DNA of 35,477 bases from positions 1-35,477 of the forward strand of contig PLTZ01000002.1 in assembly GCA_003164715.1 (NCBI GenBank), read 5' to 3'. The translations under genes were made by a program, and so were the position numbers. Each line of letters begins with the position of its first letter. The first letter of the stretch is position 1. The notes beneath the pieces were generated by a model, which made no database searches, was not told where the DNA came from, and saw only the letters and a program-made list of their open reading frames with translations. This DNA is from Opitutaceae bacterium. Its GTDB lineage: Bacteria; Verrucomicrobiota; Verrucomicrobiia; Opitutales; Opitutaceae. Shown here piece after piece: positions 1-33,858 of this stretch.

Positions 1-114
1 CGGGGGACAGGGTGGTATACTTTGACGGCTCAGGCGGCGTATTCTCGGGGCAATCGCTATGCGATTCCACGCCTTCGACGGCCTCAGAGCCGGGGGACGG
101 GGTGGTATACTTTG
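1..114. repeat. Two 24-bp direct repeats inside the istA coding sequence
   Basis: Positions 1-24 and 91-114 match at 23 of 24 bases (CGGGGGACRGGGTGGTATAC followed by TTTG). On the minus strand both are in the istA frame and encode KYTT-x-SP. The part GGTGGTATACTTTG resembles GGTGGCCTACTTTG in the terminal repeat at 2159, in the same orientation. They may be extra transposase-binding sites embedded in coding sequence, or simply a duplicated linker. Confidence 0.6.
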
Positions 115-121
115 CGTACCG

Positions 122-129
122 CCGAACCG
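122..129. repeat. Left copy of the 8-bp target duplication of the IS256 element
   Basis: CCGAACCG here is identical to 1999-2006. An 8-bp duplication fits the 8-9 bp made by IS256-family transposases. Confidence 0.8.
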
Positions 130-184
130 GGTACTGTCCGTCAAGTTGCGCACATTTTAAAATGGTGAGTGCGGAGGAAGGATC
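130..184 (+). repeat. Left inverted repeat of the IS256 element
   Basis: The outer 26 bases (GGTACTGTCCG...GTTGCGCACAT) match the outer 26 of the right end at 19 positions without gaps, with two solid blocks, GTCCG and GTTGCGCACAT. Similarity continues inward to GCGGAGGAAGGATC with a 1-nt gap. The GGAGGAAGG block that acts as the transposase ribosome binding site at the other end is duplicated here, ahead of ATG 186. Confidence 0.8.
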
Positions 185-250
185 TATGTTGATGGTTGGG
201 TTAACGATTGGAATGGAGCGAAATGCTCCCGTTCCGGAAGTCTGGGGAAG

Positions 251-298
251 GATCCTTAAAGGATCGGGGGTGAAAGGGGGTGTGGGGGAAAGCGGGGG
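251..298 (+). other. Palindrome followed by a four-tract G-quadruplex motif
   Basis: A perfect 15-bp palindrome, GATCCTT-A-AAGGATC (251-265), is followed at once by four runs of exactly five G at 266-270, 276-280, 284-288 and 294-298, separated by loops of 5, 3 and 5 bases. This satisfies the usual G-quadruplex pattern strongly. It lies inside the IS256 element between the left inverted repeat and the passenger ORF. A role in expression or transposition is only a guess. Confidence 0.6.
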
Positions 299-390
299 CG
301 AAGCCACCGCTGTCCCCCACCACTTGGTTGAGTTGGCTCGGCTGGCGGGGTTGGCTGGACATGCCGGGCGGATTGGCCATGACGGGAGGA

Positions 391-663
391 ATGATTTCGC
401 TTGGGAGCGGCGAAGCCGGCCGCAGTTTGAAAGCGCTGAAGCGAGAATTGGCCGCGTTGCAGAAACGCTGCACCAAGCTATGGGCGGAAATGGCGGCCCA
501 GGAGCAGGAGTACGTCGAGCGCAAGATGTGTCGGGCGGCGACGACCCGCGCCTTCAGGCGATACGAAGCCTTGCGCGATCGGTACTGGGCAGCGGAATTT
601 CGCCGCGTGCAGCTGCGCGGATTGGTTGCCGAGCGATCGAAGCCCGGCGACGACCTGCCGTAA
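391..663 (+). CDS. Small hypothetical passenger protein in the IS256 element
   Basis: This 90-residue ORF is not recognised. From about residue 13 it is rich in Lys, Arg, Glu, Ala and Leu with helical, coiled-coil-like spacing (ALKRELAALQKR, then AFRRYEALRDRYWAAEF). Third codon positions are GC-rich as in real genes, unlike the other frames here. The frame is open further upstream to 280. ATG 391 was chosen because GGGAGG precedes it, although the spacing is too short; ATG 361 and 379 are alternatives. It ends 4 bp from the transposase stop, facing it. It may be an accessory IS protein or a captured gene fragment. Confidence 0.45.
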   Translation: MISLGSGEAGRSLKALKRELAALQKRCTKLWAEMAAQEQEYVERKMCRAATTRAFRRYEALRDRYWAAEFRRVQLRGLVAERSKPGDDLP

Positions 664-667
664 GCTT

Positions 668-1936
668 TCATGCGAATTGTCCTTCCACGACCTTGGAGGG
701 CGCAGGCGGGGCGATCGTGAGATCTTTGAGATGAGACATATCCATGTACCGTTTCCGGCCCCAGAGCGTGCCCACAATATGGCGCAGCCGGGCCGCAACG
801 AGGATGAGGGCACTGTTGCCGTCGGGGAAGGCGCCAACGGCCCGGGTTCGTCTACGGATCTCGCGCATGATGCGCTCCAGGGGATTATTGGTCCGCAAAC
901 TGCGCCAGTGCTCCGAAGGAAAATGGAAGTAGTGGAATGTCTCCTCGATGCCAGTGGCGACGGTCTCGGCCGCGCGGGCGAGCTTCATCTCGCGCAGCTT
1001 GGCGACGACCAACAGGGCCTTTGCCCGGGCCGCTTCAAGGTCCTCCTGGGCGTGGATTGCCTTGAGCATGGCGGCGACCTCTCGGACCTTCGAACTCGGC
1101 ACCGCCGTCCAGACGTTGCGGTAGAAATGGACCACGCAGCGTTGCCAGCGGGTGTCGGGATAAAACTCAGCCAGGCTCTCGACCAGCCCGAGACACTTGT
1201 CGCTGATCACCAGGCGCACTCCAGTGAGCCCTCGGTCCTTAAGGTAGCGCAGGAAGTTAACCCAGGAGGGCTTGTCCTCCTTCGCGCCCTCCATGACACC
1301 CAGAACTTCGCGGAAGCCGTCCTGGTTGACGCCGATGGCGACCAAGATGCTCACGTTCTTGACCTCGCCACCCCAGGAGCGCTTCAGCCATATCCCGTCG
1401 AGAAAAACATAGGGGTGCTCGCCGGTGATCGGCTGGTTGCGCCACTCCTCGATCTGGACAGCGATCTTCTGGTTGAGCTCGCTCACCGTGCTGGGGCTCA
1501 CCCGGGTGCCCCAGAGTGCCTGCGTGATATCCTCGACTCGTCGGACGGAAACCCCAGCCAGGTACATCTCAACCAGCGCCTCCTCCACGCTGATCTCCCG
1601 GCGCCGGTAGCGTTCAACGATCGCGCTCTCGAAAGGGAGCTTCCGAAGCTTCGGCATCTTCAGCGTCACCTCACCCGCCTGGGTATGCAGCTGGCGCTCG
1701 TAATGGCCGGCTCGGGTATCCACCCGATCCTCGGAATGCTCATAGCGCTTCGCTCCACAAAGCTGGTCTGCCTCGGCATCCAGAAGGGCGTTCAGCGTCT
1801 CTTCCACGGTCGTTACGACGATCTTGTTGAGGTGATCCTTGATCAGGCCTTCATTGATGGCGATCACGTCACCAAGAGGCTTCGTTTGGCTGTCCGCGCC
1901 GGTCGCGGATGCATCGGAGATCATGTCTTCGTTCAT
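668..1936 (-). CDS. IS256-family (mutator type) transposase
   Basis: The 422-residue protein has the full length of the family. It catalyses DDE-type cut-and-paste or copy-out movement of the surrounding element. The catalytic triad is visible as D180 (in FLDGIWLK), D246 (in VISDKC) and E354 (in NNPLERI), together with the family CxxH signature RCVVHFYRN at 266-274. The N-terminal region contains the DNA-binding part, with SVRRVEDI and SPSTVSELN helices near 130-155. ATG 1936 is preceded by GGAGGAAGG, which is part of the inverted repeat. There is no frameshift or internal stop, so the element may be active. Confidence 0.93.
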   Translation of the reverse strand: MNEDMISDASATGADSQTKPLGDVIAINEGLIKDHLNKIVVTTVEETLNALLDAEADQLCGAKRYEHSEDRVDTRAGHYERQLHTQAGEVTLKMPKLRKLPFESAIVERYRRREISVEEALVEMYLAGVSVRRVEDITQALWGTRVSPSTVSELNQKIAVQIEEWRNQPITGEHPYVFLDGIWLKRSWGGEVKNVSILVAIGVNQDGFREVLGVMEGAKEDKPSWVNFLRYLKDRGLTGVRLVISDKCLGLVESLAEFYPDTRWQRCVVHFYRNVWTAVPSSKVREVAAMLKAIHAQEDLEAARAKALLVVAKLREMKLARAAETVATGIEETFHYFHFPSEHWRSLRTNNPLERIMREIRRRTRAVGAFPDGNSALILVAARLRHIVGTLWGRKRYMDMSHLKDLTIAPPAPSKVVEGQFA

Positions 1937-1942
1937 TGGAGT

Positions 1943-1998
1943 GGACCTTCCTCCGTACTAACCGTTTAGAATATGTGCGCAACAATCCGGACGTTATC
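1943..1998 (-). repeat. Right inverted repeat of the IS256 element
   Basis: Read on the minus strand it begins GATAACGTCCG and contains GTTGCGCACAT, then TACGGAGGAAGGTCC. The GGAGGAAGG inside the repeat lies at ribosome-binding distance from the transposase ATG at 1936, so the terminal repeat also serves as the translation signal. Confidence 0.8.
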
Positions 1999-2006
1999 CC
2001 GAACCG
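1999..2006. repeat. Right copy of the 8-bp target duplication of the IS256 element
   Basis: CCGAACCG, identical to 122-129. On the minus strand it spans istA codons ending in T-V-R, immediately before the break. Confidence 0.8.
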
Positions 2007-2106
2007 TCTTTCGACTCAGCTTTAATTCACGCGCAATGCATCGTTCTGACCAGCCCCGCGCGGCCAGCATTTGGATCGTACTAATCATAGGCGCTTTAAG
2101 AAGGTT

Positions 2107-2148
2107 CATTGCGCCCTTCTCTGCGGACTCCGCCGCAGAGGCGCAATG
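2107..2148 (-). promoter_or_regulatory. Hairpin covering the istA start codon
   Basis: On the transcript the segment 2148-2107 folds on itself. CATTGCGC (2148-2141) pairs with GCGCAATG (2114-2107), and CTCTGCGG (2140-2133) pairs with CCGCAGAG (2126-2119), around a 6-nt loop. The only interruption is a 4-nt bulge, AAGG (2118-2115), which is the likely Shine-Dalgarno core. The istA ATG is the last three bases of the outer stem. Such a structure would hold down transposase translation, as is known for other IS elements when transcripts enter from outside. The pairing is seen directly; the regulatory role is inferred. Confidence 0.6.
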
Positions 2149-2158
2149 GCTCCTAAAG

Positions 2159-2207
2159 GTGGCCTACTTTGACCCCGTCCCTAACTGGTACCCTTTGGCC
2201 GTCCCCC
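2159..2207. repeat. Tandem terminal repeats of the IS21 end
   Basis: Two imperfect 23-bp copies lie next to each other: 2159-2181 (GTGGCCTACTTTGACCCCG core) and 2185-2207 (CTGGTACCCTTTGGCCG core, ending in CCCCC). IS21-family elements carry such multiple repeats at their ends as transposase binding sites. The outer copy reaches almost to the IS tip at 2211. Confidence 0.6.
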
Positions 2208-2211
2208 GACA

Positions 2212-2405
2212 GCAACATCAGTGATCGGACCAGAGCGATCCCGCTTCATAAACTGTGCGGCGAAATTCCCTGACCGGTCATAAAAGAGCAATGCCACGGG
2301 ATCTTCGCCTAGCGACGGCTCAAGGCGACGCTCGCCACTGCGGGTGCAATCGATGCGACTGATCAGCTTCCATGTTCCCGGTAGAACCACGCTCAAAGGG
2401 TCCAT
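2212..2405 (-). pseudogene. Lipocalin-like domain protein, 3' end removed by the IS21 insertion
   Basis: From ATG 2405 the frame reads LPGTWKLIS, then LGEDPVALLFYDRSGNFAAQFMKR, the start pattern of the small bacterial lipocalin-like family (Lipocalin_5 type; G-T-W near the start, then a G-x-DP-x-x-L-x-Y segment). Family members are about 130-150 residues; here about 64 remain before the IS tip, and translation ends inside the IS at 2181. The rest of the gene should lie beyond the left edge, on the far side of the IS. It follows the cyclase gene by 43 bp and may once have been in its operon. A TTG start at 2462 overlapping the cyclase stop is an alternative. The function of the family is poorly known. 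Confidence 0.65.
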
Positions 2406-2448
2406 CAGGAGTTCGCATCCGCCGAACAGAGGGTGAAGGCGCAGTCGC

Positions 2449-3294
2449 TCATGCAGCCTCAAGCTTCCAATCGACCGTATGGGCGCGAACCGGACGATCG
2501 AATCCCTTCAATACCACTTCCCCAATTTCCTGAAATTGGAATCCTTTGCCGAGACACAGTTCGGCCACAGCATTGGAGACCAGAATCTGCGCCGGTGAAG
2601 CATAAGTGCAAAGTCGCGCGGCAAGTTGGACTGTAGATCCGAAAAGGTCCTGATGCTGCTGTACGGGTTCTCCCGCTGCCGCACCGATACGAATCTTAAT
2701 GGGCTGAGCCTGCTGGTTCTGAGCATGATTCGCCAAATCGTGTTGGATCTTCCTTGCACATTTCACCGCCGAGACAGCTGAAATGAAAGAAGCCATAATT
2801 CCGTCGCCGGTATGCTTCACCTCGCGACCGCCAAGACTAGCCAAGGCGCTGCGGACCACGTCATTGTGCAGGTTCAGAAAAGCCATTGCCGCTTCATCTC
2901 CCAGCGTTTGAGTCAGCGAGGTCGAATCGACTATGTCCGTGAAAAGAATGGTCCGGATTCCCGAATCCCTATCATTGGGGCTGCCATTGGGAATAATGAC
3001 CGCACCGGCGCTATTGACCTCTGTACCGCCGAGAAATGCATCCGCGAGTTCGGGCTGAATCTCGATGATGCTATCGGCGACCATTCCATGGGCTTCGCGA
3101 TGGACACGGCATGCCGTCTCGGCATCGGGTGCAGAAACGAGGCAACAGACGTTTTTCTTAACCTCGTCCACCCAATATTTGTGATACTCAACGCAATATT
3201 TCTTTTGAACCGCTACATCCTTTTGGTGAGCCCCCAAAAGGGCCTCAATCGTCAAGCCCAGGACGCAACGATGGATATCCATGTAAAGGGGCAT
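2449..3294 (-). CDS. DUF4242 / class III nucleotide cyclase fusion protein
   Basis: This 281-residue soluble protein has two parts. Residues 1-80 are a DUF4242 domain (related to the nickel-binding SCO4226 protein), with histidines at 8, 23, 38, 65 and 69. Residues 113-275 are a class III adenylate/guanylate cyclase domain that would make cAMP or cGMP. Visible cyclase residues are the metal ligands D120 (FTDIVDST) and D164 (HTGDG), the purine-selecting pair K160 and D216, which favours ATP, and the transition-state arginine R227. The usual catalytic asparagine of the VNxAAR motif is Q223. No membrane segment or signal peptide is present. A stand-alone DUF4242 gene lies 56 bp upstream and a truncated lipocalin gene downstream. 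That DUF4242 senses a metal or ligand for the cyclase is inference. Confidence 0.85.
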   Translation of the reverse strand: MPLYMDIHRCVLGLTIEALLGAHQKDVAVQKKYCVEYHKYWVDEVKKNVCCLVSAPDAETACRVHREAHGMVADSIIEIQPELADAFLGGTEVNSAGAVIIPNGSPNDRDSGIRTILFTDIVDSTSLTQTLGDEAAMAFLNLHNDVVRSALASLGGREVKHTGDGIMASFISAVSAVKCARKIQHDLANHAQNQQAQPIKIRIGAAAGEPVQQHQDLFGSTVQLAARLCTYASPAQILVSNAVAELCLGKGFQFQEIGEVVLKGFDRPVRAHTVDWKLEAA

Positions 3295-3350
3295 GCGTTG
3301 TCGTGCTCTATTTATTATTCTTGTCCATCGACCTTGTTAAACTGGGTTGG

Positions 3351-3626
3351 TTAGGCCTCTGCTGTCGTTGGATCGATCATGCGCCTTACTTCGGATACCC
3401 GATTTGCCGGAAACCCACCTTGTTTCGCATGTTCTCTTACCAACGCCTCGTTAGGAGCGATGTAGACGCAATAGATTTTTTCGTCGGTAACGTAGCTCTC
3501 GACCCACTGAATTTGTGGGCCCAGATTCTTTAACACGCTGCATGACTTCTGAGAGATGCCTCGCAGCTGCTCGGGCGTGAGTTTCCCTGCGCCTGGTATT
3601 TCGCGTTCGATTACGAATTTTGGCAT
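3351..3626 (-). CDS. DUF4242 (SCO4226-like) small protein
   Basis: The 91-residue protein is a complete, single-domain DUF4242 member. It begins MPKFVIEREIPGAGKLTPEQ and contains IQWVESYVTDEKIYCVYIAPNE and EHAKQGGFPANRVSEVR. The family forms small ferredoxin-like dimers, one of which (SCO4226 of Streptomyces) binds nickel. There is no signal peptide, so it is probably cytoplasmic. It is the first gene of a short minus-strand group, followed by the DUF4242-cyclase fusion. Having the domain both alone and fused in one operon suggests that the two proteins pair or sense the same ligand, but this is inference. No clear ribosome binding site precedes ATG 3626. Confidence 0.8.
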   Translation of the reverse strand: MPKFVIEREIPGAGKLTPEQLRGISQKSCSVLKNLGPQIQWVESYVTDEKIYCVYIAPNEALVREHAKQGGFPANRVSEVRRMIDPTTAEA

Positions 3627-4090
3627 GTTGCTTTTGGGTTTAACTTTGATTGGTGCGGTTTACATGTCTGACATTAATCGTGCTGATGGCCGCTATTCGA
3701 TACACTAATCCGGCTCCGGTCAATATTGGTGCTGTTCGGTGGCATTGGTGCGGACGCTCCTTTTCCCGCCAGCGTTCTTGTCCAAACGCCTACAATAAAG
3801 CCACGGCCAGCGGATCGGCTCATAGCCTTGACCAATGTGGGTATATTCGGGTCTCGTGCAAAAACTTCTAGGTGGCGTAGTAAGTGAGACTCGTGTCAGA
3901 ACTCTTGGCGTCCGTTCCCATCGTCTAACCATCAATTTTCGAATTCCCTACCACCGTGAGCACTTCCGCTGGACCGATCGAATCAAGAAATCCAAGGGAC
4001 ATTCGATCTCGGACAAAAGGGACCCACTCAACGGCAATGTCAGCGAAGCTGGGAAAACGAGCTGAGCCTGCCGCTCACAGAGGAGAACAC
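3627..4090. other. Long intergenic spacer between DUF4242 gene and trpE
   Basis: I find no gene here on either strand. Base composition is much less GC-rich than the DNA from trpE onward. Three copies of ATTGGTGCKG occur at 3649-3658, 3725-3734 and 3744-3753, upstream of the DUF4242 gene. A small hairpin, TGAGC-CTGCC-GCTCA (4063-4077), lies just before the ribosome binding site at 4079-4086. Promoters for the divergent genes must lie here, but none stands out. Confidence 0.5.
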
Positions 4091-4126
4091 ATGTTACACG
4101 AGGTCCAGTCCGCTACAGTGGAGTGA
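4091..4126 (+). CDS. Candidate 11-codon leader ORF coupled to trpE
   Basis: ATG 4091 has a better ribosome binding site (AGAGGAGA at 4079-4086, 4 bases before ATG) than trpE itself. It encodes MLHEVQSATVE and ends with TGA at 4124-4126, two bases before the trpE ATG at 4129, and it is out of frame with trpE. This layout would allow ribosomes to re-initiate at trpE. It has no Trp codons, so it is not a classical attenuator peptide. Confidence 0.4.
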   Translation: MLHEVQSATVE

Positions 4127-4128
4127 CC

Positions 4129-5613
4129 ATGGAGATCCATCCCACCCGAGAGGAGTTCCTTGCGCTCGCCCGGACGGGCAACCTGATCCCCGTGTATGCG
4201 GACCTGATGGCGGACTTCGAGACCCCGGTCTCGGCCTACTCCAAGCTGCGCGGCCACGGCCCGGCGTACCTCCTCGAGTCAGTGGAGGGCGGCGAGAACC
4301 TCTCGCGCTACAGCTTCATCGGATGCCGGCCGAGGAAGACCTTCGCCTGCGGCCCGCAGATCACCGAGATCCGCGAGCCGGGCAAGCCCGCGCGCACGGT
4401 GCCCACCCCGGGGGACCCGCTCACGCTGATCGAAGCCGAGCTCCGGCAGTTCCGGCCGGTCAAGCTGCCGGGCCTGCCCCGGTTCACCGGCGGCGCCGTC
4501 GGCTTCCTGAGCTACGAGTACGTGACGCGGATCGAGCCCACGGTGCCGGCGGCGGCCGCCGACGAGCTCAAGATGCCGCTCATCTACTTCATGCTGTCGG
4601 ACAGCCTCCTCATCTTCGACCGCGCGAAGCAGACCCTGCGGCTTTGCGTCAACGCGCATGTCTCGGCGGAGGGCCCCGACGCGGCGTACTCCGCGGCCGA
4701 GGCCGAGCTCTGCCAGCTCTTCGAGGTGCTGAAGCAGCACGGCGCCCTCGCCCCGGCGCCGCTCGTCGGCGCCCCCAGGGTCGAGGTGCCCCCGGGCAAT
4801 TTCACCCGGCCCGCGTACGAGAAGCTGGTCGAGAGCGTGAAGGAGTACATCCGCGCAGGCGACGTGATCCAGGTCGTCCCCTCCCAGCGGTTCTCGCGCC
4901 CGTTCACCAAGACCCCCCTGGACCTCTACCGCGCGCTCCGAACCGTAAATCCGTCGCCGTACACGTTCATCCTCGATGCGGGGGACTTCGCGCTGGTCGG
5001 CGCCTCCCCGGAGGTGCACGTGCGCCTGACCGACGGGCTCGTCGAGATCCGCCCCATCGCGGGCACGCGGGCGCGCGGCGCCACGCACGAGGAGGACTTG
5101 GCCCTCGAGAAGGAGCTCCTCGCCGACGAGAAGGAGCGCGCCGAGCACCTGATGCTGGTCGACCTCGCGCGCAACGACATCGGGCGCGTCTGCACGTTCG
5201 GCTCGATCCACGTCCCGGAGTACATGTTCGTCGAGCGGTACTCGCACGTGATGCACATCGTCTCGCAGGTCGAGGGCGTCATCGACCCCGGGAAAAGCGC
5301 GTTTGACCTCATGCGCGCCACGTTCCCCGCCGGCACCGTCAGCGGCGCCCCCAAGGTGCGCGCCATGCAGATCATCGCGGAGAAGGAACCGGTCCAGAGG
5401 GGGTTCTACGCGGGCGCGCTCGGGTACTTTGGCTACGACGGCAACCTGGACTCGTGCATCACGCTCCGGACGGCGCTCCTGCGCGACGGCACGGTCCACA
5501 TCCAGGCCGGCGGCGGCGTCGTCGCGGACTCCGACCCGGCCGCGGAGTACCAGGAGACGGTCAACAAGGCGGGCGCCCTGTTCAAGGCCGTCGAGATCGC
5601 GTCGCGGTTCTGA
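4129..5613 (+). CDS. trpE: Anthranilate synthase component I
   Basis: The 494-residue enzyme converts chorismate to anthranilate with ammonia or glutamine from a TrpG partner, the first committed step of tryptophan synthesis. The N-terminal domain carries the LLES motif (in AYLLESVEGG) that binds feedback-inhibiting tryptophan. The C-terminal chorismate-binding domain shows PIAGTRARG, ERAEHLMLVDLARND, FPAGTVSGAPKV and AGGGVVADSDPAAEY, all intact. ATG 4129 is preferred over GTG 4123 because GGAG (4120-4123) sits 5 bases before it. No trpG or other trp gene is next to it; the following gene is a sigma factor after a ~365-bp gap. LLES and the full length favour TrpE over PabB. Confidence 0.95.
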   Translation: MEIHPTREEFLALARTGNLIPVYADLMADFETPVSAYSKLRGHGPAYLLESVEGGENLSRYSFIGCRPRKTFACGPQITEIREPGKPARTVPTPGDPLTLIEAELRQFRPVKLPGLPRFTGGAVGFLSYEYVTRIEPTVPAAAADELKMPLIYFMLSDSLLIFDRAKQTLRLCVNAHVSAEGPDAAYSAAEAELCQLFEVLKQHGALAPAPLVGAPRVEVPPGNFTRPAYEKLVESVKEYIRAGDVIQVVPSQRFSRPFTKTPLDLYRALRTVNPSPYTFILDAGDFALVGASPEVHVRLTDGLVEIRPIAGTRARGATHEEDLALEKELLADEKERAEHLMLVDLARNDIGRVCTFGSIHVPEYMFVERYSHVMHIVSQVEGVIDPGKSAFDLMRATFPAGTVSGAPKVRAMQIIAEKEPVQRGFYAGALGYFGYDGNLDSCITLRTALLRDGTVHIQAGGGVVADSDPAAEYQETVNKAGALFKAVEIASRF

Positions 5614-31140: not shown

Positions 31141-31730
31141 TTGCTTGTGATGGGAGCGGCGATATCGCCGGCGGCGTGCGCGGCGCCCTCCGGCGCGGCC
31201 GAATGCACCACGATGTGCGCGGCGGACGGTATTCCGGCGACCTTGTTCAGCAGCCGCACAAGCGTCGTGCGCTCGTGCTCGGAGAGCGGGGCCATCTGCG
31301 CCGCCATCTGCTTGAAGTGCCCGGGCAGGATTTCCTGGAGGGCCGAATGCCCCTTCGGCGTCAGGTGGATAAGCATCATCCTGCGGTCGCCCGAGTCGTG
31401 CTCGCGCGTGACGAGCCCGTCACGCTCGAGCGTGTCGACCAGGCCGGTGACGGTCGCCCGCGTCACCCCCGCCTTCTCAGCGAGGTCCGCGGGGGTCTGC
31501 GGGACCGGCTTCCCGCCGATCTTGTCGTAGAGGAGCATCATCACCGTGAAGCGCCCCGGCGACATGTTGTGCTCGTTCAGGAAGACCTCGCTGCGCCGGT
31601 AGGCCTCGTCCCCGGCCCGGAGCAGGTTCAGGTACGCCTCGCACGCGGAAGGGTCCAGGTCCGGATGGAGCCGGACCGCCTCGAGGATGCATTCATAGCG
31701 TGGGAGGTCCTTGAGCATCAATAACGGCAT
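31137..31730 (-). CDS. MarR-family transcriptional regulator of the efflux operon
   Basis: The 197-residue protein has the MarR winged helix at about residues 55-140 (NMSPGRFTVMMLLYDK, TPADLAEKAGVTRATVTGLVD, wing GDRRMMLIHLTPKG). About 30 extra residues form an Ala-rich C-terminal tail. MarR dimers bind palindromes and let go when they bind small phenolic or drug-like compounds. It is the first gene of the efflux operon, with a good ribosome binding site (AGGAG), and a candidate operator lies at the promoter, so autorepression and drug induction are likely. Confidence 0.92.
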   Translation of the reverse strand: MPLLMLKDLPRYECILEAVRLHPDLDPSACEAYLNLLRAGDEAYRRSEVFLNEHNMSPGRFTVMMLLYDKIGGKPVPQTPADLAEKAGVTRATVTGLVDTLERDGLVTREHDSGDRRMMLIHLTPKGHSALQEILPGHFKQMAAQMAPLSEHERTTLVRLLNKVAGIPSAAHIVVHSAAPEGAAHAAGDIAAPITSK

Positions 31731-31772
31731 CGGTGATCTCCTGGGTGCGATTCGTGGACGAAAGTTGGATAG

Positions 31773-31815
31773 TTAGGAACCTAATCATTCTACAATCAAG
31801 TGGTAAATTCGCCAA
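31773..31815 (-). promoter_or_regulatory. marR-efflux promoter with palindromic operator
   Basis: On the minus strand a -35 box TTGGCG (31815-31810) is followed after exactly 17 bases by TAGAAT (31792-31787), a 5/6 match to the -10 consensus. Two bases further comes the palindrome TTAGG-TT-CCTAA (31784-31773), covering the expected transcription start. Its size and form match known MarR-family operators. A second, weaker -35-like TTGATT lies inside the spacer. Confidence 0.65.
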
Positions 31816-31863
31816 AAGACACCAGGATTGCGGTATCGGTCTGGGGGCACCGCCCGGGGCGTA

Positions 31864-33858
31864 TCAGGCCCCCAACGAACCCACGGCGGCGACCACGGCC
31901 TCGACCGTGATACCCAATTCCTGGTAAACGACTGGAGCTGGGGCGCTTAGACCAAATCGGTCGATGCCGACCACCTTGCCGTCGAGACCCACGTATTTGC
32001 GCCAGAGGGCCGTGACGCCCGCCTCGATCGCCACCCGCCGGCGGCACGCGCTTGGCAGGATGCTCTCCCGGTACTCCGCGGGCTGCCGGTCAAAAACCTC
32101 AAACGAGGGCACCGACACGACGCGCACCCCGGGGCCCAAGAGCCGAGCGGCACCGAGCGCTAACTGAAGCTCGCTGCCCGAGGAAAGAAGGACGACGCTA
32201 AGCGGCGCCGTTTCCTGGAGCGCCACGTAGGCCCCCTTCAGCACCCCGGCCCTGCGCTCGTGCGCGGGGATCTCGTTGAGCACCGGCACGGCCTGGCGGG
32301 TGAGCGCAATCAGCGTCGGGCCCTCCGTGCGCTCAAGGGCGGCGGCGAAGGCGCCCGCCGTCTCCTCCGGGTCGGCGGGACGGATGACCTCCATGCCCGG
32401 GATCAGCCGCAGGGCCGAGAGCGTCTCCACCGGCTGGTGGGTCGGCCCGTCCTCGCCGACGCCGATGGAGTCGTGCGTGTAGATATAGACGACCGGAAGC
32501 CTGGAGAGCGCCGCAAGCCGCATCGAGGGCCGCGAGTAGTCGGCGAAGACAAGGAACGTTGCGATCGACGGGCGGAAGAGGCCGTCGTAGGCCACGCCGT
32601 TGGCGATCGCCGCCATCGCGTGCTCGCGGATCCCGAACCGGATGTTTCTCCCCGAGCGGTTCGTCGGGTCGAAGTCCTTGTCGGCCGCGATGTAGTTGAG
32701 CGTGGACCCGTAGAGGTCCGCGCTTCCGCCGATAAGGAGCGGGAGCTCCGCGGCGACCTGCTGGAGCACGTCGCGCCCGGCGGCTCGCGTCCCGCCGAGC
32801 TTAACGTCCGGCGCAAAGAGCGGGATCTTCGAGAGGAGGTGGGCCGCGCTCGGCTTCGAGCCCGCCGAGTCGAGGAGCGCCGCCCTCTCGGGGTTGGCGT
32901 CCCGCCAGGCCCTGTACGTCTTGACCCAGCGCCGGTGGGCCCGCACGAGCCTACGCTTGTGCTCGGCAAAGTACGCGCGCACGTCCTCGCTCACGAAGAA
33001 GCGCTCGGGAGGAAGGCCAAGCCCCGCGCGGGCGGAGTCCGCGAACTTCGCCCCGGCCTCGCCGTGGCCCTTCTGGGTGCCCTGGACCTCGGGGATACCC
33101 CTGGCGATGATCGTGTGCGCGATGATGAGCTGCGGCTTGCCGCTCTTCGCCTTCTTCGCGCGGTTGAAGGCCTTCAGGAAGGCGGCCATGTCATGGCCGT
33201 CCACCGTCTGGACGTCCCATTCGATCGCCTTGAACCTGCCCGCCGTGTTCTCGCTCTGGGTCTTCGCGGCCATCGCGTCCAGGGTGACAAGGTTCGAGTC
33301 GTAGATGAGAATCAGGTTGTCGAGCTTCTGGTGCCCCGCGAACTCGACGGCCTCCATCGCCACCCCCTCCTGCATGCAGCCATCGCCGGCGAGGCAGACC
33401 ACATGGTGGTCGAAGAGCGCGTGCTCGGGCGTGTTGAACCGTGCGGCCGCCATCTGGCCCGCAACGGCCATGCCGACCGCATTGCCGACGCCCTGCCCCA
33501 GGGGCCCGGTCGTGGCCTCAACCCCGGGAGTCTCGCGGAACTCGGGGTGGCCCGGCGTCCTGCTGTGCAGGCTGCGGAACTTGGCGATCTGCTCGATCGG
33601 CAGGTCGAAGCCGCTCAGGTGCAGCCATGCGTAGAGAAACAAGCTGCCGTGGCCGGCCGAAAGGACAAAACGGTCGCGGTTGATCCACCGCGGCTCGTCC
33701 GGATTAAGGGAAAGCGCGTGCCCGAAGAGCACCGCGCCGATCTCGGCGCAGCCGAGCGGGAGTCCGAGGTGGCCCGAGGCGCAGGCGCAGACGGCGTCGA
33801 TCGCGAGGCCGCGCGCCTGGTTTGCGGCCTTCCCGAGTGTGGCGGTTTGAAGGGGCAT
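31864..33858 (-). CDS. tkt: Transketolase
   Basis: The 664-residue thiamine-diphosphate enzyme moves two-carbon units between sugar phosphates in the pentose phosphate pathway. All three domains are present: a TPP-binding domain ([17 protein letters not shown], then [16 protein letters not shown] with the metal/TPP-binding GDG motif), a pyrimidine-binding domain ([22 protein letters not shown]) and a C-terminal domain. ATG 33858 (MPLQTATLG) was chosen; the TTG at 33876 lies too close to the AGGAG. It follows rplS by 80 bp and could be read from the ribosomal operon or from its own promoter. Confidence 0.95.

Follow-up and report, generated by a model that had tools for sequence, protein, structure and literature searches.

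A probable adenylyl cyclase fused to a SCO4226-like domain and its rare pairing with a free PF14026 gene in an Opitutaceae bacterium

The fusion gene found in the window (the whole 35,477-nt stretch of Opitutaceae DNA that was analyzed) belongs to a large, unstudied family of cyclases and occurs in a rare pairing with a free PF14026 gene. With all of its parts taken jointly, the mechanism that we propose is tentative. The fusion would be a soluble, homodimeric class III adenylyl cyclase whose N-terminal ferredoxin-like domain, of the subtype that we call H-type, would serve as the input and dimerization part and would bind a ligand at a conserved site (D6, H8, H23, D26, C51, H65, and H69). The signal would come from redox or reactive-electrophile metabolism rather than from nickel. 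The protein encoded upstream, of a second subtype (R-type) and of the same fold, could pair with the H-type domain and so trim the cyclase. A low-GC cassette carrying the two genes and a lipocalin gene would have entered at the glmS 3′ end, and insertion sequences would later have broken the lipocalin gene. The features of the window are as follows.

130 to 1998, minus strand: IS256-type (Mutator family) element (Transposase_mut, 355.5 bits; transposase at 668–1936).
1999 to 2198, minus strand: end of an IS21-type element, interrupted by the IS256-type element; the other part is at window 1–129.
2199 to 2404, minus strand: 5′ remnant of a Lipocalin_5 gene (positions 2–50 of 142), ending at the IS21-type end.
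2449 to 3294, minus strand: PF14026-cyclase fusion, 281 aa (PF14026, 67 bits, residues 4–79; Guanylate_cyc PF00211, 63.2 bits, residues 115–266).
2497 to 2952, minus strand: class III nucleotidyl cyclase catalytic domain of the fusion (PF00211, residues 115–266; D120, K160, D164, D216, Q223, and R227).
3058 to 3285, minus strand: N-terminal H-type, SCO4226-like domain of the fusion (PF14026, residues 4–79; phmmer).
3351 to 3626, minus strand: free PF14026 (DUF4242) protein, R-type, 91 aa (PF14026, 100.4 bits, residues 4–80).
4118 to 4124, no strand assigned: GTGGAGT, the trpE-side copy of the glmS 3′ end, read as the right edge of the inserted cassette.

The two DUF4242 genes of the original prediction, a stand-alone one and a fusion with a class III cyclase, were both confirmed by Pfam on the minus strand. 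The DUF4242 family is PF14026, currently named "SCO4226-like." All scores exceeded the Pfam cut-offs (28.5 bits for PF14026 and 21.9 bits for PF00211), thus excluding chance for the domains of both genes. In the host genome itself, the cyclase domain was matched at G000:C72:2497-2952, and no further PF14026 match was seen. The free gene lies upstream of the fusion across a gap of 56 bp. A promoter and terminator scan of positions 2150–4200 gave 1 and 3 sites, respectively, vs. 1.2 and 2.0 in shuffled sequences, so it is the shared strand, the short gap, and the like composition of the two genes that suggest an operon.

At least 561 relatives of the fusion were confirmed; the best 80 were kept, and this set is hence biased toward near relatives. 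The fusion architecture was checked in these best 80 of 561, of which 79 were full-length fusions from many phyla and one (L070) was frame-broken, in agreement with the earlier expectation that DUF4242-cyclase fusions occur elsewhere. Conservation was counted in 80 fusions, namely the window fusion and these 79. The family thus spans many phyla, and some annotated plasmids label its members "nickel-binding protein." Searches of open-access papers found no functional study of the PF14026-cyclase family. Three fusion-length PF14026 frames were observed in the genome of locus L018 (G072, contigs C36 and C107).

The AlphaFold model of the fusion (57 of 81 sequences) reached a pLDDT of 92.1 and a pTM of 0.88. 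The closest solved structures to its cyclase domain were Ma1120 of Mycobacterium avium (36% identity over the cyclase domain, Foldseek E = 1.2e-16) and Rv1900c, two class III adenylyl cyclases, but these matches cover the cyclase domain only and not the PF14026 domain. Every one of the top 50 Foldseek matches to the fusion model was a cyclase, which leaves sequence similarity as the basis for the fold match of the H-type domain. Among the 80 fusions, K160, D164, and D216 were present in all, R227 in 79, and D120 in 78. Both metal aspartates (D120 and D164) and the ATP-specifying pair (K160 and D216) are present in the window fusion, and the latter, a Lys/Asp substrate pair common to the two proteins, matches by motif K101 and D157 of Ma1120, as given in the accessible part of its description (PMC4215837). 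With its substrate and metal residues present, the fusion is probably an adenylyl cyclase. Position 223, the transition-state position at which most cyclases have Asn, was Gln in 73 of the 80 fusions and Asn in four, and Arg227 is present. The conclusion that Q223 makes the cyclase inactive was considered and rejected: according to the same part of that source (PMC4215837), Ma1120 also has a residue other than Asn at this position, Ala as opposed to the Gln of the fusion, and is active, and Asn put there lowered its activity, so Gln223 is no argument for a dead enzyme.

Proteins that bind cyclic nucleotides are encoded beside three fusions: a Crp-type regulator immediately upstream in L075 (L075:1167-1847) and, on the strand opposite to the fusion, cNMP-binding proteins in L064 and L067 (L064:7007-7393 and L067:2813-3931). 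These are possible cAMP receptors and fit a cAMP output of the fusion. The host has two further cyclase-domain matches, and its cNMP-binding domains over the cut-off lie on four contigs in open frames of 529–1046 codons. None of these cNMP-binding frames was Crp-sized; as they are open frames rather than called genes, one of them could contain a Crp-sized gene.

The N-terminal domain of the fusion is a clear homolog of SCO4226 (phmmer against 4oi3/4oi6, E = 1.4e-12). D6, H8, H23, W41, C51, and H65 were found in 80/80 fusions, and D26 and H69 were found in 79/80. The fused domain has D6, H8, H23, D26, W41, C51, and H65 in common with SCO4226 (PDB 4OI3/4OI6; PF14026, NF033706), a protein that, unlike the fusions, stands alone. 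In SCO4226, as far as the accessible part of the structural paper goes (PMC4186839), M5, Y50, and L52 face the dimer interface; because residues alternate along a strand, D6, H8, and C51 would likely face the helices bearing H23, D26, H65, and H69. Together, these residues resemble a site for a polar ligand contact that is separate from the nickel sites published for the protein surface.

The two PF14026 domains of the window are different subtypes and not copies of each other, the fused domain being H-type and the free protein R-type. The window fusion scored 113.9 bits with the fused-type (H) profile and the free protein scored 157.0 bits with the free-type (R) profile; these profiles were built here from fused domains and free proteins, respectively, with both window proteins among the building sequences. 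The opposite-type profile matched neither window protein at E 0.001. The free protein lacks D6, H8, and H23, and the R-type set keeps W41 (20/22), C53 (22/22), and H66 (21/22), two of the 22 having proved to be H-type. The AlphaFold model of the free protein (from four sequences only) had a pLDDT of 84.2, and its best PDB match was SCO4226 (4oi6, TM 0.75/0.83). The free protein was closest to the R-types of the host's own family and genus: it was 73–90% identical to the best R-type of five same-genus genomes (86.7% to G033), and one genome had a second copy at 62%.

Other PF14026 arrangements were observed in the host's family. Tandem double H-type proteins with signal-peptide-like starts (by eye) were found at L109:5675-6292 and L134:1838-2734, each with an R-type gene directly before it, which may represent an exported, cyclase-free form of the pairing. 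R-type pairs in which the second protein has a signal-peptide-like start (by eye) were found at L135:2175-2871, L136:1841-2572, and L137:1505-2237.

The R-then-H order is sporadic but repeated. A free PF14026 gene was found in the fetched flank of three of the 80 loci, with at least 1 kb of upstream flank available for 75 of them. In L050 and L072, the gene directly upstream of the fusion is an R-type one, with order and strand as in the window (2/80), whereas in L039 the free gene lies 3.3 kb downstream. As to the neighborhood survey called for in the original prediction, the free-then-fusion arrangement recurs in L050 and L072, but in no more than two of 80 loci, and other neighbors are commoner. 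A tree was computed for 80 fusions (L070 left out) by a quick search with SH-aLRT supports only. In it, the three fusions with an adjacent free gene were scattered and need three changes; a single origin of the pairing is also compatible with the starred branches alone. When the whole genomes of 49 of the 80 fusions were searched (L072 was included because its pair was known), 10 had a further short PF14026 frame, adjacent in two and elsewhere in eight, the short frames being typed only in L039, L050, and L072. The cyclase therefore needs no free PF14026 gene in cis.

PF14026 was present in 22/387 Verrucomicrobiota genomes, 76/296 genomes of the L072 phylum, 25/289 genomes of the L050 class, and at least 119/400 genomes of the L048 phylum. 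In these wider samples, the PF14026 frames of at least 250 aa beside a second PF14026 gene, not all of which were checked as cyclases, were only the pair centers and G238, in which the long frame encodes a double H-type protein that has no cyclase domain. At least 20 fusion-length frames were present among the matches listed for the L048 phylum, and none of these was paired. Two Verrucomicrobiota fusions (L139 and L140) had no R-type gene within the 4–5 kb fetched. A rough estimate, assuming a further short gene in one genome of five and 3,000 genes per genome, gave approximately 0.005 adjacent pairs expected in 80 loci vs. two observed.

Class III cyclases work as dimers, and PF14026 might be a dimerization clamp only, with the cyclase constitutive or regulated through its expression and the free R-type gene an unrelated island neighbor. 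This account is possible, if on the doubtful side. It agrees with SCO4226 being a swapped-strand dimer, as stated in the accessible part of the structural paper (PMC4186839), with the free gene being directly upstream in only two of 80 loci, and with the many contexts in which R-type genes stand alone. However, a mere clamp would hardly need D6, H8, H23, C51, and H65 in every one of 80 fusions from many phyla, and the same order and strand in three fusion loci, together with the two pairs of an R-type and a double H-type gene, exceeds chance by the rough estimate. In the mechanism that we prefer, in which the H-type domain would act as the input, the R-type protein is a concrete partner candidate, and cross-regulation between the R-type and H-type proteins would be a reasonable possibility. 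Its most specific form, in which the two subtypes would pair by the swapped strand and the mixed dimer would switch cAMP synthesis upon a redox or electrophile ligand at D6/H8/H23/C51/H65, is quite unlikely. A mixed R/H dimer as a cyclase input mechanism was not found described in the open-access papers searched.

The junction between glmS (identified by its SIS and GATase domains) and trpE was compared in L122, L123, L125, and host contig C36. In three of 10 trpE loci of the genus (L122, L123, and L125), the site is empty, and glmS runs directly into trpE (GAGTGACCATG); five of the other loci have the full flank and show no glmS, and two end at a contig end. In the host, GTGGAGTAAG closes the glmS side in C36, and the window has GTGGAGTGACC on the trpE side. 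The simplest reading is that a low-GC cassette carrying the gene pair and the lipocalin gene was inserted at the stop codon of glmS. The glmS 3′ end is a known entry point for islands (attTn7-like sites), which the window cassette resembles in its apparent insertion point. The GC3 of the pair was 0.554 and 0.553 vs. 0.96 for trpE. The R-type genes of genus members had a GC3 of 0.64–0.84; the window free gene is below this range, with a smaller contrast than that against trpE, and its low GC3 is weak evidence of recent transfer because the genus R-types are also rather low. A 104-aa frame with no Pfam match, located between glmS and the 3′ part of the lipocalin gene (G000:C36:30225-30539; L121:10226-10540), may belong to the inserted cassette.

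The lipocalin gene, whose frame we read as starting at 2404, is broken. Lipocalin_5 positions 70–141 were matched at G000:C36:30700-30903, approximately 0.5 kb past the glmS end. The 8-mer GATGTTGC occurs at both break points (window and C36), and the stretch beside the break (window 2149–2198) is 82% identical to C36. We infer that both parts come from one gene and that contigs C36 and C72 join. Window 1–129 is identical to C36 33291–33419 (100%), and window 1999–2023, on the other side of the IS256-type element, is identical to C36 33412–33436; C36 also carries an IstB_IS21 match (31163–31933, 209.1 bits) and an rve/Mu-type transposase frame (31930–33360). Inverted repeats of the IS256-type element are found at 129–181 and 1946–1999. 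The simplest reading is that the lipocalin gene was broken by the IS21-type element, itself later hit by the IS256-type element. The left end of the window is a contig end (G000:C72:1-35477), and the nested insertion sequences in window 1–2198 probably also caused this contig break.

A functional unit including the lipocalin gene, as the original prediction had proposed, was rejected: the window copy is broken, and a lipocalin gene was found near the fusion in 0/49 fusion genomes, most of which are drafts in which a contig end could hide one. A Lipocalin_5 match was present in eight of the 49, on another contig in seven and approximately 950 kb away in the eighth.

PF14026 was found in 13 of 57 genomes, the host included. 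No fusion was seen in the 56 related genomes, the window's genome being the only one in which a fusion was seen. An apparent second fusion in G006, of the same genus, was rejected, as the long frame is a repeat of the last part of the same free gene, located at the end of a contig and continuing past it. In the tree, the window fusion fell inside the OsmC-linked Chthoniobacterales clade with moderate support (87 and 92, not starred), and its end branch was 0.35 vs. a median of 0.18. This long branch, the lipocalin gene split by nested insertion sequences, and a composition not adapted to the host would all be expected if the locus were decaying and a once useful cassette were being lost, a possibility that we consider unlikely: both reading frames are intact, and there are 52 columns that at least 75 of the other 79 fusions conserve, at none of which the window fusion deviates, which argues against decay.

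The nickel link of DUF4242, from which a metal-responsive module had been suggested, was not borne out in the fusions. In the accessible part of its description (PMC4186839), SCO4226 is nickel-induced and binds four Ni per dimer, with a low affinity (Kd 10 uM) and at solvent-exposed surface sites, through nine side-chain ligands (H3, H12, H20, H23, E38, D43, S46, E74, and H76). Only H23 was fixed in the 80 fusions, and eight of the nine ligands were not conserved: the D43 position was Asp in 24 and Asn in 54, the S46 position was Ser in six, the E74 position was Glu in 13, and the H76 position was Ile in 71 and never His. In the window fusion, H23 and D43 are retained; D43 belongs to the Ni-1 site together with S46 and H76, whose positions are occupied here by Lys (K46) and Ile, respectively. 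Scores with the nickel-binding family model NF033706 (cut-off 125 bits) were 61.7 bits for the fusion and 12.5 bits for the free protein, which is of the other subtype and matched the SCO4226 nickel model at only E = 0.11. A nickel-responsive cyclase, in which Ni(II) would bind the H-type domain and switch cAMP synthesis, is thus very improbable: the nickel binding and induction of SCO4226, the clear homology of the fused domain, and the label "nickel-binding protein" in four of 16 plasmid records (match of at least 80% of the query) speak for it, but the published affinity is low, the ligands of the best site are not kept, and the fusion scores at about half of the family cut-off. The nickel label rests on residues not kept by the fusions, and a different conserved site is indicated. 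Of the second-messenger module originally envisaged, the evidence supports the cyclase, with its substrate and metal residues, but not the nickel response.

The redox or electrophile signal of the preferred mechanism is suggested by the neighbors of the fusions. The most frequent arrangement was the following.

L026:4811-5323, one example from a set of 29 loci (all among L003-L037 and L070): OsmC gene preceding the fusion, often itself preceded by a BBE-type FAD oxidase gene.

The OsmC gene was on the same strand as the fusion, with gaps of 2 to about 150 bp, in these 29 of 80 loci, which belong to Verrucomicrobiota, Pseudomonadota, and Vulcanimicrobiota (Pfam confirmation for five of the 29). 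Within 1.6 kb of the fusion, 25/80 loci had a BBE-type FAD oxidase (PF01565 and PF08031; four of the 25 Pfam-confirmed), among them L054, L060, and L062, which lie outside the OsmC clade. A glyoxalase was near the fusion in nine of 80 loci and further off in five. These OsmC, BBE oxidase, and glyoxalase neighbors suggest a signal of redox or reactive-electrophile metabolism rather than nickel, and the OsmC/FAD oxidase neighborhood makes such an input directly testable. Only one part of the fusion tree shows the OsmC link, and the window copy is without OsmC. The Chthoniobacterales fusions (e.g., Candidatus Udaeobacter) have the same architecture as the window fusion, with which they share at most 70% identity, but most of them have OsmC directly upstream, often with the BBE oxidase, whereas the window fusion has the R-type gene instead. 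Among the open-access matches listed for OsmC and adenylate cyclase, no paper on this gene was found, as judged by title and the start of the abstract.

Pfam scans covered 32 of 59 selected codirectional neighbors, and eight of 30 scanned were without a family; neighbor clusters 0 and 1 (antisense to the fusion) and 4 (an overlapping frame) were left aside. Many other loci had unrelated neighbors (glycosyltransferase, transporter, tryptophan-pathway, permease, and other genes). A peroxiredoxin gene adjoins the fusion in L065 and lies far off in L052, and a truncated globin gene adjoins it in L062.
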